Shown in pieces: positions 2,905 to 27,988 of a DNA stretch of 27,988 nt. The notes under the pieces are model-generated. The model did no database searches, was not told the DNA's origin, and worked only from the letters and a program-made list of their open reading frames with translations. Source of the DNA: Podaxis mareebaensis (lineage: Eukaryota > Basidiomycota > Agaricomycetes > Agaricales > Agaricaceae). The DNA lies in NCBI GenBank assembly GCA_018524725.1, contig JAEUWP010000387.1, forward strand, positions 1 through 27,988. Reading direction: 5' to 3'. The position numbers and the translations under genes were made by a program. The first letter of the stretch is position 1, and each line of letters begins with the position of its first letter.

Positions 2905-3164
2905 TGTTATGACCTTTGTATGAACTCAGGTTGCAACTAGGCAAAGACTTGAGGATGAGCAAAGGGGAAAGAACTAGTTGGTAAAGCATAGGGAATACAG
3001 GTGCTCTACCTAGGGTTTATATACTGTGAGAGGAGTAGCTAAGAATAGATGAAACAGAGAGATGAGTCAGTGGATGACTAAGGCAAGATGTGATAAGGGG
3101 CTGAAACATAAGGTGAAATGGTGTGCTGAGTAAGTGTGTACTAAATATAGCTGAGACCATAACA
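2905..3164 (-). repeat. 3' LTR of element A
   Basis: A 260-bp long terminal repeat running TGTTATG...CATAACA on the + strand. It matches 8930-9189 base for base as far as I can read. It contains no CG dinucleotide at all, which is unusual even in this CpG-poor window. The TATA box (3018-3023) and self-primer sequence (2978-2989) of the 5' copy are present here too. Confidence 0.95.
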
Positions 3165-3177
3165 TCACCCTCCTCCT
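3165..3177 (-). other. Polypurine tract of element A
   Basis: On the - strand the bases directly before the 3' LTR read AGGAGGAGGGTGA. This is the expected plus-strand primer of an LTR retrotransposon, and its position fixes the inner edge of the LTR at 3164. Confidence 0.8.
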
Positions 3178-3199
3178 AAGGTGTCATGACCACATGAAA

Positions 3200-4189
3200 C
3201 TAATGTAAAGGTCCATGTAAGGTACAGCATACTGGAAAGGTGAAATGTGCAAGGAAATTCTGGGCTTCTTCGAATGTTGGGGGTTCCCATAGTCAGTGAG
3301 TGATGTAACAGGTGATGTCCTTCTTGTTGGGGCCAATGAAGAACTGGTTGGTGGGCTTCTTCCATGCAATGAAGAAGGGTGCGTGGTTGGGTCCTCCACT
3401 GTACATGGGGATCATAGTGCCATGGTAGGTGGCACCAGTGTTGCTGTGATCTTCGATGAGGACTTGTAATATCTTCTTCCAGTATTCTTCATCTTTCTTG
3501 CCATCTTTCTTCAAGGTCTTGAATGGTACTGGGGGTTCACATTTCTTGACTTTGGCAGGTCCCATACATTCAGGGGTGAGGAACTTGATGAGGTGCATGG
3601 CCTCTTCTTTAACAGTGGGGATTTCATCATCTGACTCTGGGTCAGTTAGGGGATAGCATTGTGAGGCAGGTCGTGGAGTTGGGTGATCATGAGGGAAGGG
3701 GTCCTTTCCTTGGGTGAGTGCTACAAGGCAAGATACAAGGTTCTCCTTTTCTTCATTGTTGGTTATACCCAACTTGGAGAGCTGTTCTGCCACCATAACT
3801 AAGATGCTTGTGAACCAGTCGCTTGTGTCAGATATGAGGTATTCATTGGCATCGTGGAGGATGATGTGGATGTGCTGGTTCATCTGGGTGGTTCATCCCA
3901 ACCCCTTGGCTGAGTTGTGTACTTGTGGGATGGTGGCTTGGACTGCTTCAGCAAATAGTTGGACTGCTTCTCATACTTCAGTGTACACTCGTTGGAGGCA
4001 GATGATGTCTCGTGCTAGTTGTTTGTGTTCTTTGAATCACTTGGTTGGGTTGTTGTTTGTGAGTTGTTGTTCGATGTCAGTGATAAGGGTGTCAGTAGGG
4101 GGAGTGGTAGGGACAAATGTCTGGGTGCTCTGGTCTGTGTCCATGTCTGTGTTTTGAATTTGCTTGGGATGTTGTGATGCTATAACCAT
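3200..4189 (-). pseudogene. Third ORF of element A, downstream of pol; unknown protein
   Basis: An extra reading frame of 329 residues lies between pol and the 3' LTR, a position where simple gypsy elements have nothing. Its ATG (4187-4189) overlaps the pol stop (4180-4182). It ends at a TAG at 3200-3202. Four TGA codons interrupt it, at 4037, 3971, 3893 and 3293 (lowest coordinate); otherwise the frame is continuous. The protein is hydrophilic. A central part is rich in Glu, Asp, Lys and Pro. The C-terminal half has aromatic-rich segments such as PFFIAWKKP and NQFFIGPNK. I see no membrane helix, signal peptide or cysteine motif, so an envelope is unlikely. The function is unknown; a capsid-like or nucleic-acid-binding accessory role is only a guess. 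Confidence 0.7.
4180..4189 (-). promoter_or_regulatory. Overlapping stop-start between pol and ORF3 (element A)
   Basis: The - strand reads ATGGTTATAG. The pol frame is TGG TTA TAG and ORF3 reads ATG GTT ATA from the same bases. This geometry suits termination-reinitiation, with ribosomes that finish pol restarting on ORF3. The mechanism is inferred from the overlap only. Confidence 0.6.
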
Positions 4190-7100
4190 TGATTACCCCC
4201 CCTTTTTATAGGTTTTACTCCAGGAAACCTTTGGAGATAATCCTGTAATACTTCCTGAGTGTTCCCGAGTGCTGATTCAGTTATCCATGTGTCATGTTCA
4301 TTGCTATACCCTTTCCAGTGTACAAGGTACTGCATTCCTCAGCCTTTCTTGCAATGTCCTCGGATTTCTTCTACCTCATATTCTTCTTCCCCATTAATGA
4401 GCTCCGGTTGCAGTGGTGGTTCAGCTTGCTGATTCATGAACTTCAGCAGTTGGTATGGTGTTAGTAATGCCTCATTGAATACATTGTGGATGACCCATCC
4501 TTCTGGTAGCTCCAATTGGTATGCCCCTGGTCCTACTTTCTTGAGTATTTTGAAGGGTCCATAGTATTTATGATCAAGCTTCTTTGTTGGTCGATTTGTC
4601 ATTATGTTTGTTCCCTCGAGCCACACCTGGGTCCCTTCTTTGTAATCTCTGCTTGACATTCTCTTTTTGTCATAGTGCTTTGTCATGGCTTGTCTCTTGC
4701 TTTCTAATAGTTCCCTAGCTTGAGCTTGGCATGTTGTAAGTTTTTTGAGAAATTCCATGATGGACGGTGTCAGTGATTCTATAGTGAGGTCTCCTTTCCA
4801 AGGGTGTCGTCCGTAATTGAGGAAGAATGGGGTTTCTCCTGTGCTGCTGTGGGTCTTGTCATTGTATTGGAATTCAGCCGTGGACAGCCACTCTGCCCAG
4901 TCATCTTGGTTGTAGTCGATGTATGCTCACAGGAAGGTTTCGACTTCTTGGTTGACTTGTTCTGTTTGTCTGTCCATTTGTGGGTGATATGCTGTTGATA
5001 ATCCTTGTTTCATTCCTGTTGCTTTGCATAGGTTCTTCATGAATGCTGATGTGAACTGCAGTCCTCTGTCACTGATGATCTTTCATGGGACTCCATGGAG
5101 TTTCCAGATGTGGTCCCAGTATATCTTTGCTAGTCCCATGGAGTCAAGGTTTGTGTTTGTTGCAACCAATTGGATCATCTTGGTGAACCTGTCTACAATG
5201 ACTAGGATTGCATCTGCCCTGTTTGACTCTGGAAGTGGCCCAATCATGTCAATACTGATTTCATGCCATGGTTCTTCTGGTGTTTCAAGGGGGTGGAGTG
5301 GAGCTGCTTTCTTCTGCTGGATTGCTTTGTTTCTTTGACAGCTGTCGCATCCCTGTATGTAGGTCTTGACATCGGCTTTCATTGATGGCCAGTAGTATGT
5401 TCGCTTGATGAGCTCCATTATCCTGTGGGATCCTGGGTGTCTGATATCAGGTGGGTTGTGGTATCTCCTCATGATTCTGCTCTGTAGGTCCTTGTGGTTT
5501 GGCACATAGATTTTCCTGTCTCAGTATGTGATTCCTTCTCATTCCCATGTTCATTCGGGTTCTTCTTTCAGCCATTTATCCACTATCACTTCTCTTCTCC
5601 CTCCCTTGATATCCTTCAGTACTTCTTCATCTCCTTTTACTTTGAACAGTCCTCTCCCCAGGATGACTTCTTCCGTAATCATTTCTTCTTGATGGATTCA
5701 TCATTGGAATAGTGTGTCTTTGAGTATCGTGATCTCCTTGTCTTCTTCTATTTCGTTGAAGTGCATGATTCACAATAGGATGTCAGCTTTGGTGTTCATT
5801 TTTCCCAGTATATGTTTTAGTGTGAAGTCATATTCTTGTAGTCTCAGGTGCCATCGCATTTGTCTTGTGTTCACTCATCATGGGGATCAGAAGTATTCCA
5901 GGTTCTTGTGGTCAGTCCATACTTCAAATGGTTCTCTTGCTTCGAGTAGGTATTGTCTCCATGTTTTTAGTGCTTCAACAATTGCGAGGAGTTCCCTGTC
6001 GTATATCTTGTAGTTGCATTCTGCCAGTGATAGTGTTCTGGATAGGAATGTGATGGGATGCCATTTTCCTCCCTGCTCTTGTGACAGAACTCCTCCAATG
6101 GCATATTTTGATGTGTCAACTTCTACTCTGAATTTGCCATCATCTTGTGGGAGTGCTAGTACTGGTTCTTCTGTTATGCATTGTTTTAGCTCTTCAAATG
6201 CATCTTGCTGTATTTTTCCCCATTCCCATGGTTGGCCTCCCTTCAGCTTGTGTAGTGGTCCTGCAATGTCACTGAAGTTCTTGATGAATTGTCGGTAAAA
6301 GTTTGCAAATCCTAGGAAGCTTTCGACGTCCTTGACTGTGGTCAGGGTAGGCCAATTTCTAACCACTGCCACCTTCTCTTCTTCCATCTTGACTTTTCTG
6401 CCCCCCACTACCATCCCTAATATAGGCACTTCCTTCACATTGAATACACATTTGGATTGTTTGAAGTAGAGCTTGTGCTTGTCAGCTATCTTCAGGAATC
6501 ATATTGTTCATTCTTCAAGTTCCTGCTCCATTTTGCCTGGGATGATGAAATCGTCCATGTAGTTGACCAATACTCCTTCCTGTAGTAGTTCTTGGAAGAC
6601 TGTATTCATCATTCTCTGGAATGTGCCTGGGGAGTTGCATAGACCAAAAAACATGACCATGGGTTCAAATAGTCCTTCATTTGTCAGGAATGCTGCTTTC
6701 CACTCATCTCCTTTCTTGATGCACATGTTGTTGTATCCCCAAATGATGTCTAGCTTGTTGAAGTACTTGGCATCCTTTAGTTTGTCGATGATTTCTCTGA
6801 TTAGTGGTAGTGGTGTCTTGTCCTTGATTGTGATGCTGTTGAGTTTCCAATAGTCTTGCACCAGTCGTTTAGATCCATCTTTCTTTGGGATGAAGAAGCA
6901 TGGTGATGCGTAAGGGGATTTCAATGGTCAGATTTGTCCTGATGTGAGATTCTCCTCAATGAATTTGTGAAGTTTGTCCTTCTCCTTGACTGTCATGGGG
7001 TACACCTTGGCTGGTAGTTCTCATGGGCTTTCCTCTGTAAGATTGATCTCATGGTCCCATTCAGTGTGATTGGGTAGTTTGTTGAAGTTCTGTTTGTTGA

Positions 7101-7694
7101 ACAGATGCATGTAGGCTTGGATGTATTCAGGTAGGTCAGCTTCTTTTGTCTTGTCCAGTGTCTTTTCTTCTTGTGTGCCATTTCTTCTTAACCTTGGTAT
7201 GTCAATGGTTTCATGTTTGATTTTGCATTCTGGTGGGCATCTTGTGAATCTGATCTGTCCGTTGTTCCAGTCAACCTCAGGGTTGTGTTGTGCTAGCCAA
7301 TTGTGTCCCAGAAATATGTCTGCTGAATTGATGTGTGAGACAACTGCCACTAGTTGCTCCTTGTGTCCATTGATGTCCATTTCTAGTTCCATGTATTCCA
7401 TGATGTTCTGTCCTTTGTTGCAAGTTCTGTTGGCATTGTATACTTTGAATGGTTTCTCTAGCTTCTTTGTTGGTATTTCTTGTTCCTCGACTGCTTTCTT
7501 GGCAATGCAAGTGTGTGTGCATCCAGAATCGATCAGTGTCATCAGTCTCCATTGCTTGTTTCTAGGTGTTTGAACCTTTGGTTTCACAAAGAGTTCTTGC
7601 ACTCCACTTCTTCTTTGGGGAATTGTGTATGATTGTCTAGAAGAAGCTTTAAATACAGCAGCTTGAGAGTTCACGCTCACTCTGAGCCTTTGGA

Positions 7695-7701
7695 AAAACC
7701 C
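7695..7701 (-). promoter_or_regulatory. Candidate -1 ribosomal frameshift site, gag to pol
   Basis: The - strand reads G GGT TTT in the gag frame, an X XXY YYZ heptamer. The pol frame is exactly -1 from here. After a 7-nt spacer comes a possible hairpin GCTCA-GAG-TGAGC that contains the gag stop at 7677-7679. Heptamer, phase, spacing and stem all fit a programmed -1 frameshift. Confidence 0.6.
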
Positions 7702-8582
7702 TGCTGCTCTGGTCCTTCCTCGCCTTCCTGTTCCTCCTCCATGTTCCTGATACGTGCTTTCTTGGGTGCTCTGCAATTCCTGGAGATGTGTCCCTCTTTG
7801 CCACAATTGAAGCACCTTCTTCCTCCTAGCTTCTTGCAGTCTCAGGCGATATGCCCTATGATGTTGCATTTGAAGCATCAGGGTGGTGCCTTGTTGTTAG
7901 GTGTCATTTGTCTCCCTATCTCCATTGGTTGACCCATTCCTCCATATGTAATGCCAGTTCCTGTGCATCTGGTGTGGGTTTCCACAGCTTCATATCCTAA
8001 GCCAATGTTCAGGATAGTCTCCTTCCATTGCTTGTAGGATTTGGGCATTGCTTCGATTGGGAATCCTAGTATGGTCTTGATAATGTCAGAGCATGTATTC
8101 TTCTTGAGCAGGAATATGGTGTGTTTGTCGTCTGTCTTGGACCTCATCTTTAATACGTTGAATTTGATGAGGAAGTCTGCTGTGTGTTTGTTGTTCTGCC
8201 TGTACATCTCGATTCTCCATTCTGCATTGCTTTGTTGTCCTTCATTTCTGAATGTTGCCTCTATTTCCTTCTGGAATGTGTCCCACATGAGTGTGTCATC
8301 ACTGTTCTCCATTTGGTCAAGCTTCATGCTTGCAAATTGTCCTGCAGTTCCTCCTCTCATCCAGGAGAGTACTGCTACTGCCCTTCTGTTGGTATCATTG
8401 ATCTTGTTGAACTTCAAGAAAAATGTCATCGACCTCCACCAGTCATCAAACTGGCTTCTATTTCCGTCAAAAAATCCTGGGTCAGGGACCAATGATTTCC
8501 CTCCTGCCTGCTGGGTTGCTGCTGTTTCTTCAGCCATTTTGATATCAATGTCTTCATCGTCTGCTGGTTCTTCTTTGTCTGC

Positions 8583-8666
8583 TGGTTGTTCTTCATCTGC
8601 AGGTTCTTCTAGGTCTTCTTTGTCTGCTGATTCCTCTGGTTGTTCTTCATCTGCAGGTTCTTCTAG
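8583..8666 (-). repeat. 30-bp direct repeats in the acidic part of gag
   Basis: A perfect 30-bp unit occurs at 8583-8612 and again at 8637-8666, with shorter related pieces around them. It encodes the Glu/Pro/Ala/Asp-rich repeat of the Gag N-terminus. The copy number probably varies between element copies. Confidence 0.75.
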
Positions 8667-8916
8667 CTGGTCTTCGAGTTCTGACTCAGTAGTCTCTTTG
8701 TCGTTGGTGTGCTCGCTTTCTGTAATGTCTGAAAACTCTGCCACTGATGGCTCTCTGGTTTGTCCTAGGCTGCACTGGTGTTCCTTCTCAACTGTTCCAA
8801 ATGTTGCTTCCACTCATACACTGAGCCTCACTCTTAATTGAGCACTGCTGTCACACCTGGTTGTGCCTCGATATACACCCCTAGCTGGGCCTTCCTTGTT
8901 GCAAGGTGAGTTGGTG

Positions 8917-8928
8917 ATGCTTTACCAA
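8917..8928 (-). other. Primer-binding site of element A (self-priming type)
   Basis: One base inside the 5' LTR the - strand reads TTGGTAAAGCAT. This is an exact 12-nt complement of ATGCTTTACCAA in the same element's LTR (9014 down to 9003), which lies where transcription should start. This is the Tf1-type arrangement, in which the mRNA 5' end folds back and primes cDNA. A tRNA primer is possible, since the site contains TGG, but the long LTR match makes self-priming the better reading. Confidence 0.75.
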
Positions 8929-8929
8929 A

Positions 8930-9189
8930 TGTTATGACCTTTGTATGAACTCAGGTTGCAACTAGGCAAAGACTTGAGGATGAGCAAAGGGGAAAGAACT
9001 AGTTGGTAAAGCATAGGGAATACAGGTGCTCTACCTAGGGTTTATATACTGTGAGAGGAGTAGCTAAGAATAGATGAAACAGAGAGATGAGTCAGTGGAT
9101 GACTAAGGCAAGATGTGATAAGGGGCTGAAACATAAGGTGAAATGGTGTGCTGAGTAAGTGTGTACTAAATATAGCTGAGACCATAACA
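8930..9189 (-). repeat. 5' LTR of element A, with promoter
   Basis: The 260-bp LTR drives - strand transcription. It has a TATATA box at 9043-9048, and the predicted transcript start is near 9014, about 34 nt downstream. It is identical to the 3' LTR. The right-hand target duplication TTCTG follows at 9190-9194. Confidence 0.93.
9043..9048 (-). promoter_or_regulatory. TATA box in the 5' LTR of element A
   Basis: TATATA on the - strand. The distance of about 34 nt to the 12-base self-primer at 9003-9014 fits a normal polymerase II start site. That supports both the promoter and the priming model. Confidence 0.65.
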
Positions 9190-9194
9190 TTCTG
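9190..9194. repeat. Target site duplication of element A (right copy)
   Basis: TTCTG, matching 2900-2904. Confidence 0.9.
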
Positions 9195-10048: not shown

Positions 10049-13000
10049 TTAGTGAACGTCCAGGACTTTGTTTCTTGCAAGTCACTCTCTGCAGTTGAGG
10101 CAGCAGGTGGCGAACTCTTCCTGAGTGATAGGTCCTTGAATCTGGTCAGCGAAGGAGAATGCCGTGGGGTTCTGATCTAAGAACTGGATGACCCAATGGA
10201 AGCCATCATGGGCCCCATATGGGTATTGGAATCAGGGGCAGGCATTGAGTATGTGGTCTCGTGTTTTGAGCAGTTCACTGCAAGGGCAAGAGGTGATATG
10301 GTGCCCAGGGAAGAAGCGCTGTTGAAAGGCACCAATGGGCACATGATTGGTGACACAGCACGTGAAGCGTGCACAAAGATTGGGGTTCTTTCCAAGGGGT
10401 GAGCTGAGCCAAGTACCCCCTTTTGTGTATTTGGGGAGGAGGGGTTTCTCTGTGCTATCAATGAGGGGGAGCCATGAATGGCTGTGGTGAGTGGGGTCGT
10501 TCATTAGTTGGTGCCATAGAGATAAGCATTTTTGGGTGTAGTGGTTTCGAATGAACCTGAGGGAGGTGTGGAAGGGTTGGTGATGCAGGTTGGGGAGGTG
10601 AAGGGACTTGGCGAGGGTGTGCACCTTGTGGTGGATAGACCAGTTAGCGGATGAGGGGATGGACCAGAAGTGGACATGGTTTAGAGGGGAGGAAGAGAGC
10701 CAGGAATGCAAGAGAGGGGTGACTGCAATGGAGTCCGGGTGTGTGCTGTGGGGCCTGTAAGAAAATAACAGTTTAGCTGAAGAGATTGAGTCCGTAAAGA
10801 TTACAATTGAAGAAATGTTAAGTGATTTGGAAAGAGATATGGAAGAAAAAAGACCGAGGTGGAGAGCGTACAATTTGGAATCAGAGGAGGTCACTTCCCC
10901 ACAGGGGTGGACCACAGAAGAAAGAATGTCTGTATCAGAAGATTTAAAAATTAAAAAAGCAGACGTAGTGGAGAGAGAGGAGTTAGAAGGGACTGAGCTG
11001 TCCGTAGCTACAAGAAGGGAGATGGGAGAGGAGAAAGCCAAGTCGCAAGCACAAGAGGTGTTGGCAATGTGGAGTGCCATGGCACCTTCTTTCGAAGGGT
11101 CAGGGCACTCGATGAATTTGATTTGTTCATCGAACAAGTCCAAAAGGTGCTGACCAGGTTTGGCACTGGGGTGGAGGCACTGGAACCAGTCCGTGACCAG
11201 TTGGGCATCAGAAATAAAGTCTAGCACTGATGAGCGCTGCTTGGATTGGCACACATCTAGAGGGTTGATGTCGCATGTGAGGAGTTTGAGGGGATGGGAT
11301 GGGGGGAGGGTGTGAAAGCGGAGGGAGCATCGTTTAGCGAGCTTGAAGAGGTGAAGTTGAATGGGGATGAGGCCTGTGATGGCCTTGGCTCTGCCAGTGG
11401 GAGTAGTGCAGAACGTGCCAGTGATCCAGAGGGCTGCTTGATGTTGCATGTGCTGTAGGGACTTGATGAGGCCATGATAGCATGCATTGCAGTTAAACCA
11501 GAGACAGAAACCATAGGTTGCAATGGGGACGATGCATGATCGGTATAGGAGTCTCTTGTGGAGGGGGGATAGACTGTGAAAGGAGTTACCAAGCATGCAC
11601 ATGCATCAGACAGTGGATAGCGCCTTGGTCGAGTAGAACTGGATGTGTTCTTTGAAGGTGAGGCTTCTGTCAAACCAGAAGCTGAGGTAGCATAAGAAGG
11701 GTTTTGGGGAGATGGTGAGGGAGTCATCAATGATGATGAGGGGATTGGGTTCATGAGAGGGGTGATTGGAGAAGTGGAATGCCTCAGTTTTGTCTCTTTC
11801 GAGAACAAAACCAAGGCAATGAAGATAGTCTTCACAGTTTTTGTAGACCTGTGAAAGTAGGCAGCAGTTAGTAGCGAATGAGTCTGATTGAACTATAATA
11901 AGTCCATCGTCAACAAAGGAAACTATTTTACAACTAGGGTCATTGGAAAATTTGTACATAAATGGTGAAAGAGAGAGCATGGTGAGAATGGGGGAAAGGG
12001 CAGAACCTTGGCCGATGCCAACGGAAGCAGAGAATTTAGGGGACAGATTATTGTTCCAAGAGTAGGTGGTAAAACAGTTACTTAAATAATCCGAGAAAAA
12101 GGAGATGAGGCAGGAGTTGAAGCCTTGGCGGCAGAGGGTGGAGATGAGGATGTTGTGGTTTGTAGAAGGGAAGAATTGTGCCACATTGAAGGCGATGACA
12201 CTGGTCTTGAGATTTTGTTTCCATCCCATTTGAACAAGATGAGTAATGTATATACCAGCATCTTTGGTAGAGTGCAGGATAATTCCTCCAAATTGGAGGG
12301 GGTGGACAAGGTTATGTTGGGACACTTTGAATTGCATCCGGGTCGAGATCATTTTCTTGATTAACTTACCGAGGGTGTTAAGGAGGATTATTGGGTGGAA
12401 CATCTTCAGGGTAGAGTAGTGGGGTTTGTTGGGTTTAGGGATGATGACAGAAGTGGAGTTCTTGAAGTGTTCCAGCCAGGTAGAGAATTCAACACATTTG
12501 GTTGCGAAGGTGAGGAAGTTACAAAGGAAGGTGTTGTTGGACATGAGGTGTTTGATATGAGCCCATGACAGGTGGTCAGGACCAGGGGCAGAGGTGTTAG
12601 CACACAGGTTGAGGGCATCAAAGAGTTCAGCCTTGGAGAAAGGAAGCCATGGGCGCTCCAGATGGGCGTCAAAAGACTCAATGGTGCTTAAATCAACTGG
12701 GCAGTTGGATGCAGAGTTGTATGAGGAATTGAGAGCGTTCCATAGGTCACGCAATTCATCACAGCTCTTGCTGTTATGAGTGATGGATTGGGAGGGGGGG
12801 AGGTTGCACTTGCCAACCCAGGACATGAGGTCCCAAGGGCAGCAGTCTTCCTCTGTGATGTCTCTAATCTTCTTGTCAAAAAAGAGGTGCTTGGCTTGGC
12901 GTGTAGTGCATTGGAACTTGGTCCAGTTAGATTTGGACTTGTGGGTTTGGAACGCTTTAAGGGCAGTAGAACATTGAGCATTCCACCACGGTTTGGACTG

Positions 13001-13969
13001 AGTGCAGATTTTGACAAGCTTGGCATTGCATTGCCATTCTTGGTCAATGATGTGAGACATAGCTTGGGCATATGAATGTACGTCTTCAGCAGAGTTGAAG
13101 ATGGTCGGGATGTTCTGAAGACGAATGCCTATTGAGTAAAGGAAGGTGGCTTCTTCCTCTGAATCTTTGGGAATGGTGAGCTTCTCGATGAAGGGTTGGA
13201 AGGGAGAGGGGATGGGGAGGGAGGTAAGGAGTGGGTGGTGGTCTGAAGTGAATTGCCATTCGTCGCAGATTTGATGGACTGGGCTTTGAGAGGGTTCTTC
13301 TATCATGAAAATAAGGTCAATGATGGATGGGTGTTTGTTACCATCGTAAGGGATGTGAGTGTATTTATCTTGCATTGGTGTGGATAGGGAAAGACCTAGG
13401 GAATTCATGATGTCAGTTAGAAGATCACCATGCACAGTGTGGTGGGTTATATGAGGATCCCATTCTGGAGAATGGGAATTGAAGTTGCCTCTGGTGCATA
13501 CGAGTCCTTTGGGGAGGAGGTGGATGTGTTCCTCGAGGAAGGAAATAGAAGAGTCATTCGAGGGGTCAAAATAACAGTTCAGGAAATAAACCTTTTGGGG
13601 AAAGGAAAAAGAAATGAGTTGGAAGTCCAGAGAAGAAATAATGTTCAGATGGGAGGTCAGCAGAAGTGAATTGCATGAACGTCAAATGAAGGTGGCTGTC
13701 CTAGGACGATCTTCATTTGACAGAAAGATACGCCAGTTTGGGTTGTATGGCATGCCTTTATAGGGGACTCCTTCAGAGTCGTTGGTGGAGGGGACATTTC
13801 AGATGACATGGAATGGGGGTTCTTGGAGGCAAAGAACTAAAATGTCTTTAAAAAGAGGGTCATTAAGAAGCAGTTTGATGAGAGAAGAAGAGCAATGAAC
13901 ATTGAAAAAGAGAATAGGAATAGAGGAAATAGAAGAAGGAGCAGGGCAGTTAAGAGGTCCTTTAGACAT
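10049..13969 (-). pseudogene. LINE ORF2: AP-endonuclease, reverse transcriptase, RNase H
   Basis: The frame spans 1306 residues. The N-terminal AP-endonuclease has FFNVH, QEPPFH, GNFNSHSPEWD and a TSDHHPL motif. The family's GDFN Asp is Asn here. The reverse transcriptase has FVDDG at 11903-11917 with intact catalytic Asp pair. The RNase H has VATDSS and IFTDS, but the second acidic residue appears as Lys in DSKLYAL. The C-terminus ends at TAA 10049-10051. TGA codons interrupt the frame at 13799, 13682, 11606, 10232 and 10082, and no indel breaks it. The Asp-to-Asn and Glu-to-Lys changes could both be CG-to-CA events, matching the CpG decay pattern. ORF2 begins inside the end of ORF1. Confidence 0.88.
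13962..13969 (-). promoter_or_regulatory. Overlapping stop-start between LINE ORF1 and ORF2
   Basis: The - strand reads ATGTCTAA. ORF1 ends with GTC TAA, and ORF2 begins ATG TCT A from the same bases. It resembles the translational coupling described for some two-ORF LINEs such as SART1. Coupling here is inferred from geometry. Confidence 0.6.
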
Positions 13970-16577
13970 TAACAGCACCTGAGTTGAAGTCACACTGGTT
14001 TTTTTCGGTCTTGAGTTCCTGAAGCTTGTTAATGATCCAATCCCAATCAAATCAGTGATGGAAGAAGGGACATTTGTCCGAGTTCACGTGATGCTCTTTG
14101 GAATCACATGAGAGGCAGTTGAAGGAGGTCACATGGGGACACTCTGTAATGTTGGCAGGGGTGGGGGGACGGGGGTTGGGGCTGGGTTTGCTGCGACAGC
14201 AGAAGCCATCACAGCAGTGGTTGTCAGTGTGGTGGGGGTCTCCACAGATTGCACACCTGGGGTTGCATGCCTTGCAGAGGTGTGTGGGGTGGCCCCACCT
14301 CCAGCAATGGTTGCAGAGAGGCAAAGTGGTGCACATGGAAGCACTGCAGAATGTGCAGACATGGTTTTTGAAGAGGAGGGTGTGGTTGATAAGGGTCTTG
14401 GCCCTGGTGGCCAACTGGGAGTCCCAGAGGTCAAAGAACAAGATGGTGGAGTCAGAGTGGGGGGAGATGTGGTGGAAACGTGGCTTGTTGACTAGATGTT
14501 GGATTAATTCATGGTAGGGGGAAGACTCAATGACCTCTTTGAAGTCATCAGAAGTGTGGGGTGTTCCATCAGGTTGGAAGTAAGGAAGGTTCATCAGTTT
14601 GATGAACAATTTGGACATGGGGAGAGAAGGGGTAATGGCATCCCTTATCTCTGAAGTGGCAAATGCTGACCGGTTAGAGTCAGTGATGCCTTTTTTAATG
14701 ATGAGGAGTTCCTCATCAGTGGCGACTTGGCTGGTGGAAAGCCAGAGAGTCCACTCATTGGATTTGGCTGACTCAACTTTGAGGGAGAAGCCCTTCTGAT
14801 AGAGGGCGTTGTTGCAATTTCTCACAACCAGGTTGAGGGAGGTGATGAAAATGGGTTTAAAGATGTCATTATATGGGACGACAACATTCTTGTGGGAGGG
14901 GCCTTGAGTGGCCTTGGGCAAGTTAGAGGGATGAGGAGGAGGTTTAGGGGATGGCAATGGGGATGATTTGATGTCCCTGGATGATTGGAGGAAGTTAATG
15001 ACATTGATCAGTGACATATTGGGAAATTGATTTTGAAGAGCAGCATATTTCTGGAGCTCTTCTGGTTGGAGGGGGGAGTTTGAGGTGGCCCTGGCATAAG
15101 AGGACCTCTGGGTGGGAGGAGAGGGGGCGTTGGACCTGGGACAGGTCTTGTAGTTGATAGGGGGAGGGGAAGATGAGGGAGGGGAGGATTTGGAGGAGGG
15201 TTTGGGGGCCTGGGGAGGGAAGGAGGGAGTGACGATAGGCTTATGCTGTTCTTGAGTGGCTATCAGTTTGCGAGGCACCCATCGTCGAGTGATGGGAGTC
15301 CACATACTAGAGTGGTTGTTATCCTTTCCTGAAGTTTTGGCTTCAGGAGAGGACTTGGGAGTGGTGGTAGTGGTGGGGGGTGGAGGGAGCATTTCAGCAT
15401 CAACATTAGAGCCAGATGACTCACCTGGTTTGTTTGGATCTTGAGGGGGGAGACGAGAGAGGGTGATTGCTCACACAGTGTCTTTCTCGAATTGCGAGTC
15501 TGAGCCTTGGAGATTACCAGAGGTGTCAGAGATGGGAGTAATGGAAGAGCCTCAAAGAGGCTCAGTGATGTCTTTGGGGAAAGGGGAGGACACTGCCGGT
15601 GCTTTTTCAGCCCAATGTTCTTGGTGATGACTGGTGGACATGGGTGTGGGGGTGGGAGAGAGGGTGTGGGAGGGGGGGAATTGCATGGCAATGAAGTCAT
15701 ACAGTTTGAGTTGGTGTCCGTTGTAGGGAATGGACATGTTGCGCAACTGGTCAGAGTGCACAATTATTTGAAGAATACGGATTAAGGTGGGGATGCCTTC
15801 AAAAGTGGAGAGATCTCCAGATTCAGCCCAACTTCCTAAAAAGGAAGAAATGAACTCTAATAAGGAAGTGAGGCATTTGAGCCCCATGAGATCATTTGTG
15901 TTAGTGATGTCGATCATAGCGATGCCATCACCAATGGTATTACAGATGGCTGACCAATCTGTTCTGTGGAATGGCTGCGCTTCAGCATGAGGCTGCACAG
16001 TGGGAGGAGGGGAAGTGAGAGAGAAGGTTGGGATGGTTGGAAGGGGGTCAGAGGGATGGGACTTGTCCCAAGCGTCGCCAGGAATGGGTGGAATAAAGCC
16101 ATGAGCTGCAGCCAATTTCTGAGCTGGTGTCAAGACTCTGTGTGAGGAAGGTGCCACTTCGGGTGACATGTCAATGTTGTTGTGATCTGGCGTGATGGAG
16201 GGATGGAGGGATTTAGGGGTTGAACGGCCTTGAGAGCCTTCATCATCTTCATCTCTGTTTTCTTTGGCAGAATATACAGAGGCAGCGTCATTGTCTTCTC
16301 TAAATTTCATACTTTTCTCCAATCAGTTGGAGAGGGATTGGTTGGTAGAGTAGGAGCATTTGGCTCCAATAGAAGGAGAAGGTGAAGGGGGTTTATGAAT
16401 GAAGTCTTCAGAAACTCTGAAATCGTTGAAAAGAGGGATGGAGGCCTCTCTTGGTAAAGTCAGGTTGGGCGCTACACTGGCACTGGACTGATGGCATCGA
16501 ACAATACTGGAACGAATGCTACTGGCAGCATGCTTGACACCTCCAAAGAAGCTGCTAGTTTCTTTGGAGTCCTTCAT
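13962..16577 (-). pseudogene. LINE ORF1: gag-like RNA-binding protein with zinc knuckles
   Basis: The frame spans 871 residues from ATG 16577 to TAA 13962-13964. The long N-terminal half is rich in Pro, Ser and Thr. A folded middle region follows at about 14450-15050. Next comes a cysteine/histidine-rich C-terminus with CCHC-like knuckles, including CNHCWRWGHPTHLC, and further Cys pairs up to about 14060. TGA codons interrupt it at 16323, 15552, 15471 and 14052. The TGA at 14052 would normally be read as the end of ORF1. The frame continues past it with a sequence resembling the usual C-terminus of these proteins and meets ORF2 exactly at the overlap, so I extend to 13962. ORF1 proteins coat the RNA and act as chaperones in the ribonucleoprotein particle. 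Confidence 0.82.
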
Positions 16578-16668
16578 ATTGATTTAGAACGGATTTTAGT
16601 ATTCCTTGTACTATGAATAACTGTTCCACTGAAACGATAGTGGTAGTTACTGAGAAAGGAAGGTGTTG
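16578..16668 (-). other. 5' UTR of the LINE
   Basis: About 90 bp between the element's 5' end and the ORF1 ATG. It should hold an internal promoter, as in other LINEs, but no motif stands out. Confidence 0.45.
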
Positions 16669-18257: not shown

Positions 18258-18442
18258 TTGTTACTGGTTTGACTACCCCTTGTGTACTATGTCTGTCCTT
18301 ACTGCTTCAACACCCCACTCATCCATATACTGCTATTAACCCCTTATATTTACTGTTTGATTGTCTGACTGTATCTGAATATGATCATGTTGTCTGTGAT
18401 CTTGGCTGTTGCTTAAGAAGTCCTCGTGAGGATGGTTCCTTG
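18258..18442. other. Junction between the spliced gene and the gypsy fragment
   Basis: This holds the 3' flank of the + strand gene and possibly the 3' end of element B. I found no LTR or purine tract, so element B looks truncated here, but the exact breakpoint is not visible. Confidence 0.35.
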
Positions 18443-19881: not shown

Positions 19882-20482
19882 CTGTCCTAAGACAACCCAG
19901 CACTATTAAGTTCCTGAAGCAGAATGCCCATCCGTTCTCCAGAGAGAACTAGAGGCTGGCTGGAAATCTTGCAGGGACTGCCTAGGGAGAGATACAACTT
20001 GTAAGGTCACAGGCTACTCCATAGGTTTAGCTGTTACACCAGTTATCCTGTCAAGGCAGGTAGAGCTCTCACGTGGCAAGAAGATAAAGCAGAAGACAGT
20101 CCTTGCTATTCTCGTGCTATGTACAAACGATCATAAAGCTAAGTTCTACTTACTTTATGAGCTATCTAAATATGAAGGCAATTGCTATTCTACATGTCCT
20201 AAAGGAGAATCTTCATAGTTACTTCAGTACTCTAAGTATAGTAGACCAAGCCTGAGGTAAGATGAGATCTACAGAAGGCAAGCTATTATTATACAACATA
20301 TCACTGAGCCCAAATGCTAAACATAGTGCTTCTTCAGAAGATCCGAGGTGGGACTGAAGTTGCGATGGAAGACAGGTCAAGAAGGACACTTGGAGTCAGG
20401 AGACGAAAAGGGCAGTTGATGAATGATGAGGCAGAGATGCAGGAAAGACATGACGGATGATGAGAGCAAGAGGAGTGTAACA
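19882..20482 (-). repeat. 3' LTR of element C
   Basis: A 601-bp repeat inferred from structure. The right edge sits against a purine tract and ends in TGTAACA; the left edge starts TGTCCTAAGACA, where element B homology stops. A TATAATA box (- strand) lies at 20287-20293. It keeps several CG dinucleotides, unlike the element A LTR. The matching 5' LTR is outside the window, so the left boundary could not be confirmed by comparison. Confidence 0.6.
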
Positions 20483-20493
20483 TCATCCCCTTT
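20483..20493 (-). other. Polypurine tract of element C
   Basis: The - strand reads AAAGGGGATGA directly before the LTR, the position expected for the plus-strand primer. Confidence 0.75.
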
Positions 20494-20516
20494 GTACAAT
20501 TGAACTCCAGATCGAT

Positions 20517-22154
20517 CTACCTATAACAGGTGTCGATTTCTGTGAGGCATCACTTGGATTGGTTTTGAATGGGAACATTACTGGTGGTGACATGTTGACC
20601 TTCAGTCTGCTTCATAATGGGATTGAAGGTATACTCGGTGGTGGTATTCTCTAAAGCTCCACGATCGCAAGGGATAGGTCAAGGGATAAGGGTGAAGGCA
20701 TCTTCATATAGCATGTTCTGTCATCCTCTTTGGCTGAGAGTTAGAGCATTGGCGAGAAACCGAACACACTTCTTAGCTTCTTCATACGTAGGACCATTGA
20801 CAGGGAACTGATAGCAAGATGGAATGACAGGAGTTTGAGGATGTTGAATGCACTGCCAAGAGTGGTGATTTCATCCTTGACAGAATTGGCACATGTAGTT
20901 CGGACAGTCTGAGGCAATATGCCCTACTCCTAAACAAAGCCAACAACCTTGCACGTATACTCTGAGGAGGTTGGGAGGGAGGAGTTTTGTGACAGTGAGA
21001 GGGAGAGTTCATCGTTGAATGTGGCACTCCAAATTGGGGTACTTGGAGATAGGATTCAGTTCTCCCTGCAGAGTCAAGATGTTTATGAGGGTTGGTAGGT
21101 TCAGGTAGGTGGCAATGTCAGGCTTCTGTTCGACTGAAGCCTTAGCTTGAGACTGAAGGGTCTCTGGGATGAATGGGTCAGTTCATGCTTGATGGGAATA
21201 GGCTCTTCCCTCAGCAACAAGGATTCCTCGATCTCATTGGTATTGCCAGGGGTAGTTTTCTGGTGTAACTCATGTTTGGCTTCCAGTATCTGTTGTACTG
21301 GACTCTCGAGACTGAGATATTTGATCCATCTCTGCGCATTGGGTGTGAGTGGAGGAGGAGGGGTTTGAGGTGGAAGAGTGTGTCATGGTGTGCTTGCTTC
21401 CATACTGTTGATGGAGCGAGGCGATGAAGGCAGGGGTCTCTGTGGTTGAGGCAGTGGTGAGGAAGGTACATGCCTGTCTGACGAGGTTCTTTGTGTATTG
21501 GACCTGGTGTTGGGTTTGATACTGTGAAGTGATGTTGTAGAGGGGTTGTGTCACTCTGGTGGCTGCATCTCGGAAATTAAACCATAACTCATCTCCTGGT
21601 TCCAGAGCTGGTGGGTTCCAGCTTCTCGGGTCTGTGAGTACATCGGCTGCACTTGGATAACCAGCAGCCTGGGTGAGGGAGGTAGCAGTCTGGTAGATAT
21701 TACTCAAGGGGTTATATGGATTGGAGATATTGGTCAGATTTCCAGATGTTCATGGGTCCAACACTCGATGGTGTTGTCCCGATGGATTATGATCTGGGTT
21801 CCTTTGGGGAATGGTGGCAAGGGCTTGTCAAAGGAAATTCTGATAGTTTTCATCTTCTGGAACAGTCATTGTGTGGTTTGGAAGACTGGCATACAGTGGA
21901 TTGGAGGTAGGTGTCATAGATGCTGGATGAATGAGTAAATGTTGATGGAACGGGTTGGTGCTGGTGATAAGTGATGGTTCACTCTGGATGGTAGTGAACT
22001 CGAGGTGGTCTGAGGGAGATGTCGCAATGTAGTCGCCATCAGATCCTCTGGTCAGAGAGTCTCCATGGAGGAGCTCTGTGAAGCTTTCCAGTCTGGACAT
22101 TGCTGGCTCAATGGCAGCATAATCATTGACAGAGAAGGAACTAGCATTTGACAT
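20517..22154 (-). pseudogene. Third ORF of element C, downstream of pol, with two zinc knuckles
   Basis: The frame has 545 residues, from an ATG at 22152-22154 that overlaps the pol stop to a TAG at 20517-20519. The N-terminal 350 residues are Ser/Thr/Pro/Asn-rich, with a more ordered segment near 21300-21700 (GDELWFNFRDAATR). A C-terminal domain carries two CCHC knuckles, each C-x2-C-x4-H-x4-C: CWLCLGVGHIASDC at 20904-20945, and a second at 20850-20891. The second has correct spacing only if the TGA at 20871 stands for a residue. Ten TGA codons interrupt the frame: 21828, 21750, 21270, 21234, 21183, 21009, 20871, 20721, 20679 and 20550. Because element C already has a zinc-knuckle Gag, this is a second nucleic-acid-binding protein. 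I do not recognise it. Confidence 0.75.
22141..22154 (-). promoter_or_regulatory. Overlapping stop-start between pol and ORF3 (element C)
   Basis: The - strand reads ATGTCAAATGCTAG. Pol ends AAA TGC TAG while ORF3 starts ATG TCA AAT. The 14-nt overlap suggests reinitiation after termination. Confidence 0.6.
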
Positions 22155-25100
22155 GAGTGTGTTTGGAGGCGGTGAGTTTTTGGAATGGAGGGACAAAGTG
22201 TTTCTTCTTATATTCTACCAGAATTTTTGAAGCGTTCCTTGTCAAGTTTTCTTCATCTTCCCAAGTGTTGTCTGAATTCGGATAACCTTTCCAGTGGATG
22301 AGATAGGCAGTTTGGCTTTGGTGAATTCTGTGGTTAATAATAGATTCAACTTCATATTCTTCTTCTCCATCTATTAACTCTGGTTGGGATGGTTCGGGTT
22401 CAGAGGTATTCTGGTCAGTCTTCTTGTATTGTTTCAAGAGAGAGACATGGAATGTGGGGTGAAGTTTCCATGTGGTAGGCAGGGCAAGTTCATATGCAAG
22501 TGGTCCTTTGCATTTCTTGATGGTGAAGGGCCTGTATCTTCTGGGATGAATCTTCGCTTTCTGTTCCTGCAATGGGAGGTTTCTAGCATCTAGCCAAACT
22601 TTGTCACCTTTTTCATATGTCTCGGTTCGAGGCATTCTTCAGGTGATCATTCATTTAGCATTTTCCTTCATGACTTCTGTGGCATTGTGTTGGGATTGAT
22701 CTATATCAAATAGTCGTTCATTCAATGCAGGGGCATTGGTTCGGACAAGGAGTTCAGGAATAGGGGGAGGGTTGTATCCATAGAGGAGCTCGAATGGCAT
22801 CTTCTCATTTCTGGTGTGTATGGTTGAGTTATATTTGTATTTGAAGTGCAACAACTTGTCAGCCCATGACTTGGGGTCTTTGTAGCAATACTTCAATAGG
22901 TATACTTCAAGTTCTTGATGTGAACATTCTGTCGCTCCATCTGATTGGGGGTGGTAGGTGGTGGATAGTTGTAAATCGATTCCTAGGGTGGAATAAAATG
23001 CTTTAGCAGCTTTCCCTGCCCATTGTGGATCTCGATCTGCTACGATTGAAGCAGGAATTCCATAGTGTGGATAGAAGTGCTTTGTCAGCAGGGTGGCTAT
23101 GTCTTCAAAGGTCGCTGTTTTCATAGTCGGTAGTACTAGTATCCCCTTTGTAAGTCTGCAGTCCACCATGGACAATATGGCATTATAGCCTTCTGCAGTC
23201 TCAGGTAGACCTGTGACAAGGTCCATGGACATGTCTGCAAAGGGATGTAATGATGGTGATGGCTCCAAGGGGTGAAGGGAGGGGTGATTGGGTCTTCTGT
23301 CAATATTAAATTGTTGACAGATATGGCAGCCTGTAACATAATTTTGAATGAAGTCTTGAAGGCCTGGCCAATTGGTTTCTGTGTGGACTCAGCGAATTGT
23401 TTCATCAATGCCTGGATGTCCTGTGGAGTGATGATCGTGATGTCTTGTGAGGATCTCATGTTTTTCATCTAACAATGGTTGTGATGTGGAAGGTGGTTGT
23501 GGTGCAGTCTGGAGTGATGGTGATGGAGGTGATGTACCATCTGCTGTGATAGTGTCAACAAAGAGCTCCTTCGGGAGGAGAACTTTGTCAATGTTCTCTT
23601 TCGACTTGTCAACTTCATGGTCTGGTCATCTAGAGAGTGCATCAGCGACTGGTATTGCTTTTCCTGGGTAGTGTTTGATGTGGAACTTGTATTCCTGCAA
23701 TTCGACCCAGGTTTGGACATGTCATTTTGATAGTTTTCTGGTATCTTGCCAGTGTTGGAGGTTGTCATGATCTGATCGAACTTCAATTTTGTAGGGAGCA
23801 GAATGTAGGTAGTGGTGCCATTCATCAAAGGCTTGCTTGATTGCCAGGAGTTCCTTATCAGGAGTGGCGTAATTTTGCTCTGTTGGGGTTAATGACTTTG
23901 ATCAGAATGCACAGGGGTGTTCATTTCCATTGTCATCTTTCTGGATAAGTACTCCACCAGTGGCATAATCAGAAGCATCAGTCTCGACAATGAAGGGTCT
24001 GGATGTATCTGGTGTACAAAGGAGGGGTTCTTTCTGGAAGGTCTCCTTCAAGGCTGTGAAGGCTTGCTCTGCAGTGTTGTTCCATTCAAAGTTCTGGTTC
24101 TTTCGGAGGAGTGCGTTGAGAGGGGTGCATAGGTGGGAATAGTGATGTATGAACTTCCTATAGAAGTTAGCAAAGCCGATAAATTTCTGTACATCTCAGA
24201 CACATTTCAGTCTAGGCCAATCTTTGATACCAGCCAGTTTGTCTTTTGACATTCTGATCTGGTTCTGAGAAATGTTCATCCCAAGATATTTGACAGATGT
24301 CTGTTTGAATTTACATTTCTCGGGCTTGACATAGAGATCATTCTCTCTTAGCCTCTTCAGAACTTCACAAGTTTCTTTTCATAAAGAAGAGAGGTCGTCG
24401 GAGAAAATAAGGATATCATCCATGTAGACAATGACTGCAGTGCATCCAGGTTTGTCTATTAGGTCACAAAAGATATGGTCCATCATTGCTTGGAATGTGG
24501 CTGGGCTGTTAGTCATTCCAAAGAACATGACGTTCAGTTCAAAAAGACCAAAAGGAGTTCAGAAGGCACCTTTCCATTGGTCACCTTCTTGGATGCAGAT
24601 ATTATTATATCCTGCACGGATATCAAGAGTAGTGAAATACTTGGTGCCCTTGAGGTGATCTAGTATTCCAGAAATAGAAGGAATAGGATATGCATTCTTC
24701 ACTGTGAACCAGTTCAAATGTCTGTAATCCTGAATGGGTCACAGCTTTCCATCTTTCTTCGATATGAAGAAGAATGGTGTGGCTTGCAGGCTTTCAGATT
24801 TCCTGATGTAACCTTTTTGTTGGTTGTCATCTAAGAATTGCTTTAACTCTAACAGTTCATTGTCTGTCAAGTGGTACAATTTAGCTGCTTCAGGTTTAAA
24901 GTCTGGTTTTAAGTCAATCTTGTGATCATACAGTCATGAGAGAGGATATCTTTCTGATTCCTTTTCACTGAATAGGTTTAAGTAATCCCAATAGACCTTT
25001 GGGGCGATGTCCTTCGGATCCACAGACTTCTTTGAGCCGTGGTATGCCTGATAGGACTTCTGTGCTTCTGAGATTTTGGTATTGATCTCTAGAGTGGCAT

Positions 25101-25869
25101 GCACTAGGTCAAGCTGAGCTTCATAATCAAGTCTAGCTTTCCTGCAGACAGAATGTGGAACATTCTCAGTTGCCTTTTCAGCTAGCTGGATATGATCAAT
25201 CTGGATCTCATTTTTGGTATCCATGTTATCGATATTTATAGCAGGGATCTTAGATCTCCTAGTTCACCATTGAAAGGTATGTTTTGTCCAATCAATGTTG
25301 GGGTTATGTTTTTCGAGAAGTGGGAGGCCAATGATCATCGGTCACTCTCCAATTTCTGTGACATAGCAAGTAACATCTATGTCACAATTATCTATGTGTA
25401 GCTGCAACTCTGCTTGTGCAGTAATGGCATGGCCTACATTCATAGTACCATTGACATTTCATACTGGTATGGGTCTAGTCAAGGGTATCATTCTTAACCC
25501 AAGCTGTTGAATGGTCGAGGGAGAGACGAAATCTCCTTGTGTGCCACTATCAAGTAGCAGATAGATAGTAGCAACTGTGGAAGAATTCAGATTCTTTAGT
25601 ATGGCTGGAATATACAGGGACTTGTTGTTGGTCGATGCTGACAAACAGATTTCAGCTATCATCGGCTCGGTGGAAGAGTGGGTAGTCGAAATCTGGTCTG
25701 AGTTCAGATCTGTAACCAGTACAGGGGGTTCTCTAGACAGTTTCCTACTCTCTATTTTATGAGTGAGATATTTTTGAGTGGTCCAATGGGAATTGTAATG
25801 GTTCTGTATATCAAAGGGAGGTTCAAAGTCCATACTAGAATTTGAAAGTGTTGAGGGACTCAGAGGCAT
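22141..25869 (-). pseudogene. pol: pol of element C: protease-RT-RNase H-integrase-chromodomain
   Basis: The frame has 1242 residues. The aspartic protease has DSG at 25543-25551. The reverse transcriptase has YMDD at 24415-24426. The RNase H has acidic residues in VETDAS, DKELLA and VRSDHDN. The integrase zinc domain (H-x3-H, C-x2-C) is near 23320-23450, and the core has SMDLVTG, VADRDPQ and a Glu in GATECSHQE. The chromodomain is near 22190-22380 (LIHWKGYPNSDNTWE). Twelve TGA codons lie at 25459, 25264, 24934, 24739, 24379, 24196, 23902, 23722, 23626, 23389, 22651 and 22639. Family comparison puts Arg at many of them, for example after DGKL before PIQDYR. The ATG is 5 nt downstream of the gag TAG and in another frame. 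Confidence 0.9.
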
Positions 25870-25877
25870 TGCTTCTA
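25870..25877 (-). promoter_or_regulatory. gag stop and pol start 5 nt apart (element C)
   Basis: The gag TAG is at 25875-25877 and the pol ATG at 25867-25869, with AAGCA between them. I see no slippery heptamer here. Stop-and-restart is therefore a better guess than frameshifting for pol expression in this element, in contrast to element A. Confidence 0.45.
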
Positions 25878-27917
25878 CTCTGGTCCTTGTGGAAAAGACT
25901 GCTGTTCTTCTTCAATGATCTTGGCCATCACATGGTTTGCCAGTTCGTTTTGATCTTTGGCAGTCATTTTGGCAAAAGCAACCTTGATTGCATTGAGGGT
26001 GTTAAGACGGGATGGAGAAGGATTGGAAGAAGAAGAGGAGGAAGGACGTGGTCGATTTGAGGAAGAGAAGGAAGTCGAGGCCGAAGGCCAAGAGGAAGGT
26101 TGTTTTCCTTTCTGGAGCTGTCTTTGATTCATTGGGGATTGTCGGTTCCTATGAAGGGGGCATGATCGTGCCCAGTGGTTCATGTTGCCACAGGTGATGC
26201 ATGCTCCACGTTTCATTTGGTCTTGTTGTTGATCTGTTAGGATGGCATTCACTGAGATGCCTTGTTTGGCATAGTCATCTTCTTCATCTGAGGAGAAGTC
26301 AGGGACTTCTTCTTTGTCTCCAGAAGAGAACTCTTCTAGTGTGTCGATATCCATGGGTTTGCCTGGTGGGAGTCAATGCTCTTTGTAGACAAATTTGTTT
26401 CTAGGGGTGTCATTGAACACATCATTGAAGTAAGAGAGCTGAGATGAGGGTCCTTTTCTGGTCTTGTGCATCTGGTATTGCTGGAAGTTGTTAACAATCC
26501 TAGCAACATCAGCTTGCCATTGGGCATAGGTAGTGGGAGGCTGAGTCGTTAAATAGAGTTGTTGCTGTACCCAGTCAGGAATAGAGTCGACGTAGAGATG
26601 GACTTTGTGGTTGTCATCAGTGATGTTTGCCTGGTTCAGTAGGTAGGTAAACATCTGGTTGAAGACAGTGATATCAGTTTTGGAGATGTTGAGGTGAGCA
26701 CGTCAAAGCTTCTCTGTAGCTTGCATTGCTTCAATCTTTGGTTTGAAGTGATCTTCAAGTCGGAGGTTGAAGTCGTGCCAAGTACCATACTCATAGGCAT
26801 TGTTGGTGGTATTCCACTTTTCTTTCATGAAAGCATTGTGGAATCTGGCAGCATTGCCTTTGGTCATGTACTGGAGAGTGTAAAGAATTTTCTTCCTGTT
26901 GTCAATGTTATTCTGCGCATTTTGAAACGCGGCTCGATGGTCATTGAAGACAAGTCAAAGTTGGTCCTGGAAAGTTTGGAAATTGCGAGGTTCACTGTCA
27001 AACAGTTGAATCTTCGGGGTTTTGGGTGTGGCCATGGCTGTATTCTGTTGACGAGTGGGTGGTCCTTGTGGTGGGTTAGGGGGAGGAGGAGGAGATGGTG
27101 GTTGATTAAACAGAGTTGAGGTCAATGATGTAGTACCTGGTACTCTTGGTGTTGGATGAATCGGTCTCTGTGGGGGTATCTGATTGATAGGTAATTCTGG
27201 CCTCTGTGTCTCTGTAATAGATTGGCTTGGAGGTGTAGTATCGGTCAGCATTGGGGTTTGGGATGAAGATGATGGTGACTCATTGGTTCCAAAGGTATCA
27301 GAGGTTTGGGTAATGGGTGCTAAGGGTAAAGTTTGCATTTCTGGGTACCTCAAGGAAGGCCATGTATCTGGTCCTTGCCATGAATGTGGAGATAGGGGCA
27401 AAGGTGTATCGATCCAGGTCTCAGGTTGTACACTCGTCGCAGATGCAAATGTAGAACTCTGTGATTCTGACTGCTCGGTTAGCGATGTGGTACACCTGTG
27501 TGAAACAGTTTGGGTAGTGCTGTCTGGGACTGGTTCTGGGGTTGACAGTTGTGTTGAATGATACAATGGTGGTTCGATGGTTCAGAATCATTGCAGTGGG
27601 TTTGAGGGCTTGGATTCTCTGATAGCCATCTGCTCAACTGAAGGGAAGGTGGTTAAGGTAGTAGTTGAGAGAGGGGGTACCATTGTAGTTGTGCACTGAC
27701 AATGGCTCAAATGACATTCAAAAGCTCTGAGAAGTGCCTCAGCTTGGTTGATCTCTCGAGGGGAACCCATCCAATGGAGATGTAGACTCTGAGCTTGCTT
27801 GGCTTGTTGGAAGCATTCTTCAAACTGCATGAAGAGGGTAGGATGTTCAATGAAGGTGGGGAGAGTCTCAAACTGCCAACTGTGTTGGAGCTTGTGGTGA
27901 AGGAGGATGTCAGTCAT
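25875..27917 (-). pseudogene. gag: gag of element C with one zinc knuckle
   Basis: The frame has 680 residues if it starts at the ATG at 27917; another in-frame ATG at 27947 is possible. The N-terminus is helical, followed by a long Pro/Ser/Thr-rich linker. A capsid region at about 26380-27000 has helical stretches such as KGNAARFHNAFMKEKW. A single CCHC knuckle, CITCGNMNHWARSC, lies near 26160-26205, followed by a Ser-rich basic tail. TGA codons lie at 27588, 27582, 26955, 26703 and 26373. The genuine stop is TAG at 25875-25877. Gag forms the particle and packages RNA. Confidence 0.82.
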
Positions 27918-27947
27918 CAGCAGAAAGGCTGAAACTATACATACCAA

Positions 27948-27988
27948 AAAATATCAATACATATACTGAAATGTACTAAAAACCACAA
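27948..27988 (-). other. Leader of element C, cut by the window edge
   Basis: AT-rich sequence upstream of gag. The primer-binding site and 5' LTR are not in the window. Confidence 0.4.

Follow-up and report, generated by a model that had tools for sequence, protein, structure and literature searches.

The contig JAEUWP010000387.1 of Podaxis mareebaensis (assembly GCA_018524725.1; 36,954,825 bases in 429 contigs) was analysed over its whole length as one window of 27,988 bases. It carries three retrotransposons on the minus strand, termed element A, the LINE (long interspersed nuclear element) and element C, and the stop codons inside their coding frames are exclusively TGA. Comparison with other copies in the genome showed that changes at CpG dominate the spectrum, that transposon loci but not the sampled host loci are CpG-depleted, that the strand hit is random, and that indels are few. 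Methylation of transposon CpGs, followed by poorly repaired or assisted deamination, probably explains this decay.

All 62 in-frame stops among the 6646 codons of the coding blocks were TGA (23 in A, 9 in the LINE, 30 in C; see table for each block); none was TAA or TAG. A prediction made earlier from the sequence alone (the original prediction) had claimed that all internal stops are TGA, which was borne out, although its count was 59, with 27 in element C. Its claim that the coding sequence contains no frameshift also held; the frames were intact across ~20 kb. The undivided stop-to-stop frames contained 71 TGA, nine of which were excluded because they lie in overlaps or beyond the likely gene end: six in the final part of the A gag frame (7679 onward), where the gag end had already been described as ambiguous, two in the LINE and one in C. 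The lack of TAA and TAG is partly built in, because the frames were delimited by successive TAA or TAG codons. Chance is nevertheless untenable, because the TGA-only frames reach 1480 codons and 38 of 40 other frames of the same blocks contain both TAG and TAA (the remaining two contain one). CGA is the sole codon turned into a stop by a CpG transition, and the stops are therefore TGA only. A CpA-type transition would convert 470 of the 6646 codons (230 CAA, 128 CAG, 112 TGG) into TAA or TAG.

Stops in other copies of element A were tallied over gag and pol, without the third frame, and codons at which a copy had a gap or an insertion were excluded (0-9 in gag and 1-2 in pol per copy; for the LINE, 6-18 in ORF1 and 1-3 in ORF2). 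The four least depleted A copies (CpG observed/expected 0.18-0.24, window copy included) had 87 TGA and no TAA or TAG, versus 99 TGA and 16 TAA or TAG in the four most depleted copies (0.07-0.11). TAA or TAG at rates similar to TGA had been named in advance as evidence contrary to CpG decay. They were absent from the window elements and appeared, as a minority, in the most decayed copies. Greater CpG depletion presumably marks an older copy, and the TGA-only state looks like a stage preceding the action of other mutations.

The comparison with sister copies covered the TGA sites of A and the LINE. At the 23 A sites, at least one of seven other copies had CGA at 14 and CAA at six more, with neither at three. 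Sister copies of the LINE had CGA at six of nine sites, CAA at one and neither at two. An origin from CGA thus fits 27 of the 32 sites (20 CGA, 7 CAA). A role of TGA as a sense codon, or sequencing error at methylated CpG, was also considered; TGA-only stops in open frames would, on their own, be compatible with recoding. We give this explanation almost no credence, in view of the CGA or CAA found at those 27 sites and of L060, the CpG-richest LINE copy, which has one TGA over both frames versus nine in the window copy. Moreover, CG-to-CA changes are almost as frequent as CG-to-TG, and the A family comprises eight insertions with perfect target-site duplications and few indels.

For the mutation spectrum, the window copy of A was aligned with seven further full-length copies (L044-L050), giving 28 pairs. 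By eye, each of the eight copies is flanked by a perfect 5-bp target-site duplication; their CpG observed/expected was 0.07-0.24. Between 42 and 72% of the differing bases in a pair lay at dinucleotides that were CG, TG or CA in both copies. Each pair had 96-154 sites where TG faced CA, as expected if both copies lost the same CpG independently, on opposite strands. There were 1-8 indel events per pair over ~6.3 kb. CG occurred in one or more copies at 231 columns, where the window copy had 56 CG, 94 TG, 77 CA, 1 TA and 3 other dinucleotides; TA, the product of loss on both strands, was rare in every copy (0 to 6 of 231). The lost fraction of CpG by 5′ base was 0.57 for A, 0.47 for C, 0.37 for T and 0.34 for G. 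Scored simply by neighbouring base, the differences at first seemed to include heavy CpA mutation. This was largely an artefact, because a TG-versus-CA site was scored as two CpA changes. When such sites were counted as CpG-derived, 27-130 CpA-type transitions per pair were left, fewer than CpT-type in most pairs.

Runs tests on eight A and eight LINE copies revealed no strand clustering of lost sites (z from -1.46 to 1.29). Over the 28 A pairs the lost strand was concordant at 2167 sites and discordant at 1571, and in the window copy it was discordant at 39-49% of sites versus each of the seven others.

The two long terminal repeats (LTRs) of one insertion are identical at the start. Comparison of LTR pairs is a clock of CpG against non-CpG change that needs neither consensus nor polarity. 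Within the eight A copies, LTR pairs showed 35 differences over 2081 sites: 25 CpG-type, 10 other transitions, and no transversions or indels. CpG-type differences were present between the LTRs of each of the seven other copies; the window copy had no difference over 261 sites compared. In LTR columns with CpG states an estimated 43 of 50 CpGs were lost, the discordant class being doubled to allow for concordant loss. We estimate that CpG cytosines were lost at a rate far above the non-CpG rate, roughly 409-fold (222-853 when only the Poisson error of the 10 non-CpG changes is considered), on a clock limited to 25 CpG site pairs and to columns selected for variation or CG. Within these limits, the pairs support the "fast" process of the original prediction. 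The clock points to rates that differ by a factor in the hundreds, which is open to checking wherever a fungus has both LTR elements and methylation data. The most CpG-depleted copy, L050, carries six of the 10 non-CpG differences, five of them at CpA, a hint that CpA may be hit after CpG is exhausted. The LTRs of this family that were examined contain 0-2 CpG each, and CG occurs at only five columns among 16 LTRs. A CpG-poor LTR might evade the CpG loss process.

Post-insertion loss in the window copy is invisible in its LTRs, because they contain no CpG. Its body has lost 75-79% of the CpGs estimated to have been present at the splits from the seven other copies. The nearest other A copy is 94% identical over a 1-kb body piece (36 candidates scored, window copy included); most of the body loss therefore belongs to the lineage of the window copy itself, and we infer that it came after insertion. 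The stops might instead have been inherited, if an already mutated copy had transposed recently with proteins from another element. Such an origin would fit the identical, CpG-free LTRs, which bear no trace of post-insertion CpG loss, and the part of the loss that is common to copies (the concordant sites above). It is very improbable given the 94% identity of the nearest relative, the discordant lost strands, and the CpG-type differences between own LTRs in the other seven copies.

The LINE copies, which are more diverged overall, show this process as well. Of 13 LINE loci, seven full-length ones were aligned with the window copy. CpG observed/expected ranged from 0.28 to 0.74 across copies. 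CG was present in one or more of the eight copies at 600 columns, and 5-13 of these per copy were TA. The eight copies together had 57 TGA and 3 TAA. The lost fraction of CpG by 5′ base was 0.43 for A, 0.40 for C, 0.34 for G and 0.28 for T.

CpG observed/expected was 0.84-0.98 at nine host loci, a small sample of five loci around methyltransferase matches (L011 and L013 overlap) and four arbitrary 5-kb stretches. The original prediction had called the process "targeted"; support for this is confined to the contrast between depleted transposon loci and undepleted sampled host loci. Three of the 16 flanks of the eight full-length A insertions reach host-like CpG, from 0.25, 0.5 and 0.75 kb outward; the other 13 stay below 0.4 over 1.3-1.5 kb. 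Leakage of the process into unique flanks was considered and is not supported: at the two of those three junctions that were searched, the depleted part is itself largely repetitive. Flanks of A copies at L016, L029, L031, L039 and L041, over 1.3-1.5 kb, have a CpG observed/expected of 0.00-0.05, below that of the inserted copies, as if these islands were already CpG-exhausted when A inserted.

A search with PF00145 gave five matches, two of them side by side, which we counted as four loci. Two were DNMT1-like, one DNMT2-like and one DNMT5-like, every assignment being made from one exon (for L012, from 51 residues at E 3.7e-05). One DNMT1-like locus also matched a BAH domain, below cut-off. 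The exon of the DNMT5-like locus matched only 7r76, whose entry name is DNA repair protein Rad8 and which we take to be Cryptococcus DNMT5. A search for DNMT1-type genes had been proposed in advance, and the matches point to two putative DNMT1-type loci and a putative DNMT5 in the host. No RID-type gene was identified among the four loci, at the level of single exons and with no RID reference compared, so that one could have been missed. DUF6533 (PF20151), presumably a marker of Agaricomycetes, had 62 matches in the genome and none in 14 control genomes.

The lack of a PF03167 match was not retained as evidence for loss of T:G repair. PF03167 had no match in the genome, a result of poor sensitivity that is uninformative on TDG or MBD4, and it is undercut by TIGR00628, which matched UNG-like exons at two places that PF03167 overlooked (G000:C150:156139-156694 and G000:C4:97720-98212, both below cut-off).

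The sequence of events that we propose is as follows. Two chromodomain Ty3/gypsy elements and one LINE lie in a transposon island, and host CpG machinery of DNMT1 type with DNMT5 would have methylated their CpGs after insertion. Each 5-methylcytosine would then convert to T, independently of other sites and regardless of strand, under weak repair or by an assisted reaction. CG would become TG or CA and thereafter offer no main target, which would make the process self-limiting and spare most other bases and the reading frames. The CpGs of the affected copies are likely to be methylated, and the chemical step is likely to be deamination of 5-methylcytosine rather than the action of a direct mutator. 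Methylation with 5-methylcytosine loss explains the CpG bias, the random strand, the type of stop, the few indels, and the sparing of sampled host loci. We suggest, with considerable reserve, that this may amount to a CpG-only transposon mutator without RID, in which DNMT1/DNMT5 methylation is combined with assisted deamination or with T:G repair disabled in heterochromatin, self-limiting and acting at hundreds of times the background rate.

A system resembling repeat-induced point mutation (RIP) had been offered in the original prediction as one plausible process, beside methylation-linked deamination. Such a RIP-like enzyme system, sensing duplication but specific for CpG, could act on repeats in episodic bursts of mutation, such as during the sexual cycle. 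It would account for the high speed relative to other change, for repeats being affected while the sampled host loci were spared, and for lost strands that are mostly independent among copies. We consider it unlikely, because strand runs are absent, the main target is CpG and not CpA, the exon-level search assigned none of the four PF00145 loci to RID, and the intermediate decay of the LINE copies suggests gradual loss. RIP in the strict sense is not supported, on the first three of these grounds.

Several observations weigh against decay of methylated CpG as the complete explanation. At five of the 32 TGA sites compared, no sister copy carries either CGA or CAA in support of the predicted CGA origin. 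Per copy, 98-128 of the 600 LINE CpG columns hold dinucleotides other than CG, TG, CA or TA. CpG loss in A pol varies with codon phase (0.86, 0.93, 0.81). Between the window copy and L045 there are 100 non-CpG transitions and 20 transversions, and in the LTR pairs 10 and none, an excess that CpG methylation alone does not account for and that may reflect a weaker C-to-T pressure outside CpG. The predicted CpG change holds as the main cause of the differences among A copies. The 10 non-CpG LTR differences comprise seven at CpA and three at CpT, and there may be a weak second target outside CpG, perhaps CpA. The ratio of ~400 rests on 25 LTR site pairs and presumes no gene conversion between LTRs. 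Methylation alone does not yield a rate gap of hundreds; weak T:G repair, help, or an overestimate is needed. Finally, the ratio obtained from copy-to-copy divergence is just 26-71 in A and 4-15 in the LINE. These values are lower bounds, because divergence of the source lineages inflates the non-CpG side.

Methylated CpG might instead simply decay slowly, at an unremarkable rate like that in vertebrates, which would yield the same dinucleotide spectrum and the same random strand. The vertebrate CpG/non-CpG ratio is roughly 10-15, and the LINE ratios are within the ordinary range. An unremarkable rate is nonetheless improbable, given that heavy CpG loss in eight A copies was accompanied by 10 non-CpG LTR differences in 2081 sites, and that the LTRs of the window copy are identical over 261 sites.

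CpG hypermutation of transposons is already known in Ganoderma, Tricholoma and Rhizoctonia (in the last, of genes too), and the insertion clock is a useful addition. In Ganoderma, another Agaricomycete, transposons show CpG-preferring C-to-T change and methylation, TGA is named as the CpG-made stop, and CpA is a second target (PMC4457147). The CpG-preferring change and the TGA stops are shared with P. mareebaensis; judged by methylation, genes are spared in Ganoderma too. Here, however, CpG dominates and the counted frames contain no CpA-type stop, and methylation is deduced, whereas it was measured in Ganoderma (PMC4457147). The difference in CpA is qualified by the LTR pairs, in which seven of the 10 non-CpG differences, or 7 of all 35, are at CpA. 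Tricholoma matsutake has CpG hypermutation, two masc2 copies and no rid or dim2 (PMC6980582); the CpG bias and two putative DNMT1/Masc2-type genes here are points of likeness, and no insertion clock is reported in the text examined. That study cites an earlier report of the absence of RIP in Agaricomycotina and itself finds CpG hypermutation (PMC6980582); whether basidiomycete transposons lose CpG by slow decay or by active defence is unsettled in the reports examined. Rhizoctonia solani AG8, also an Agaricomycete, shows CpG-biased hypermutation (CpG to TpG) between nuclei, with TGA the commonest stop (40%) (PMC4014442). TGA is likewise prominent here; genes are affected in AG8, in contrast to the near-normal CpG of our nine sampled host loci.

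In Microbotryum, Melampsora and Puccinia, a CpG signature was tied to Masc2-type DNMT1 of class IIA and read as methylation followed by deamination (PMC4352252). The present case is similar in its CpG-only signature and its putative DNMT1-type genes. The TpCpG preference of Microbotryum cited in that report was not found; T ranks in the lower half of the four possible 5′ neighbours in both A and the LINE. RIP in Neurospora resembles the present process in C-to-T change on both strands of repeats with sampled host loci spared (PMC4352252). It differs in that CpA is not the main target here, with no TAA or TAG despite the 470 candidate codons, and in that no RID-type gene was identified from the single exons. 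In the agaricomycete Marasmius oreades, repeats carry CpG methylation at ~0.75 of reads (PMC9674265), and a kingdom-wide k-mer screen of 2025 found RIP-like signatures in ascomycetes only (PMC12543289). In the accessible parts of the literature surveyed we saw no LTR-pair estimate of a basidiomycete CpG rate, although one may exist elsewhere. Overall, C-to-T change concentrated at CpG, spared sampled host loci, and putative DNMT1/Masc2-type and DNMT5 genes agree with CpG-type transposon hypermutation of Agaricomycetes.

The features of the window are listed in the table. Element A is a clean insertion, with identical LTRs and TTCTG on either side; the LTR match comprises 261 bases, one of them extra, beyond the terminal CA. 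Elements A and C are assigned to the Ty3/gypsy chromoviruses on their domain matches, with reverse transcriptase, RNase H, integrase domains and a chromodomain in a single frame. The integrase of element C was recognized by its zinc-binding and SH3 domains only, the core domain being unmatched. The original prediction had placed TGA in three zinc knuckles; a strict search for CX2CX4HX4C in three frames found five knuckles, one of which holds a TGA.

Table. Features of the three retrotransposons in the window (27,988 bases).
Feature	Position	Strand	Basis or remark
Target-site duplication TTCTG, low end of element A	2900..2904	.	By eye; repeated at 9190-9194
Element A 3′ LTR (TG...CA), zero CpG	2905..3164	-	Identical to 8930-9189
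Element A third open frame, 4 TGA, no Pfam match	3203..4192	-	Open frame and Pfam search
Element A pol: protease, reverse transcriptase, RNase H, integrase, chromodomain; 16 TGA	4183..7896	-	Domain matches
Element A gag: two zinc knuckles, one with TGA inside; 3 TGA; ambiguous 3′ bound	7683..8921	-	
Element A 5′ LTR, zero CpG, same sequence as 3′ LTR	8930..9189	-	
Target-site duplication TTCTG, high end of element A	9190..9194	.	By eye
LINE ORF2, reverse transcriptase, 5 TGA	10052..13960	-	
LINE ORF1, two zinc-knuckle motifs, no Pfam match, 4 TGA	13965..16583	-	
Element C third open frame, 10 TGA, no Pfam match	20520..22143	-	
Element C pol: reverse transcriptase, RNase H, integrase zinc finger, chromodomain; 14 TGA	22144..25877	-	
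Element C gag region, one zinc-knuckle motif, no Pfam match, 6 TGA; open at contig end	25878..27986	-	

A further open frame of 364 codons on the minus strand (18446-19537) has two internal TGA, ends at TAG, and gave a weak match to an integrase zinc-binding domain (E 0.00046, below cut-off). It is perhaps a remnant of a fourth retroelement with TGA-only stops. Outside the named elements, the stretches 1-2900 and 16700-20500 have a CpG observed/expected of 0.09-0.36, and the contig looks like a transposon island from end to end.

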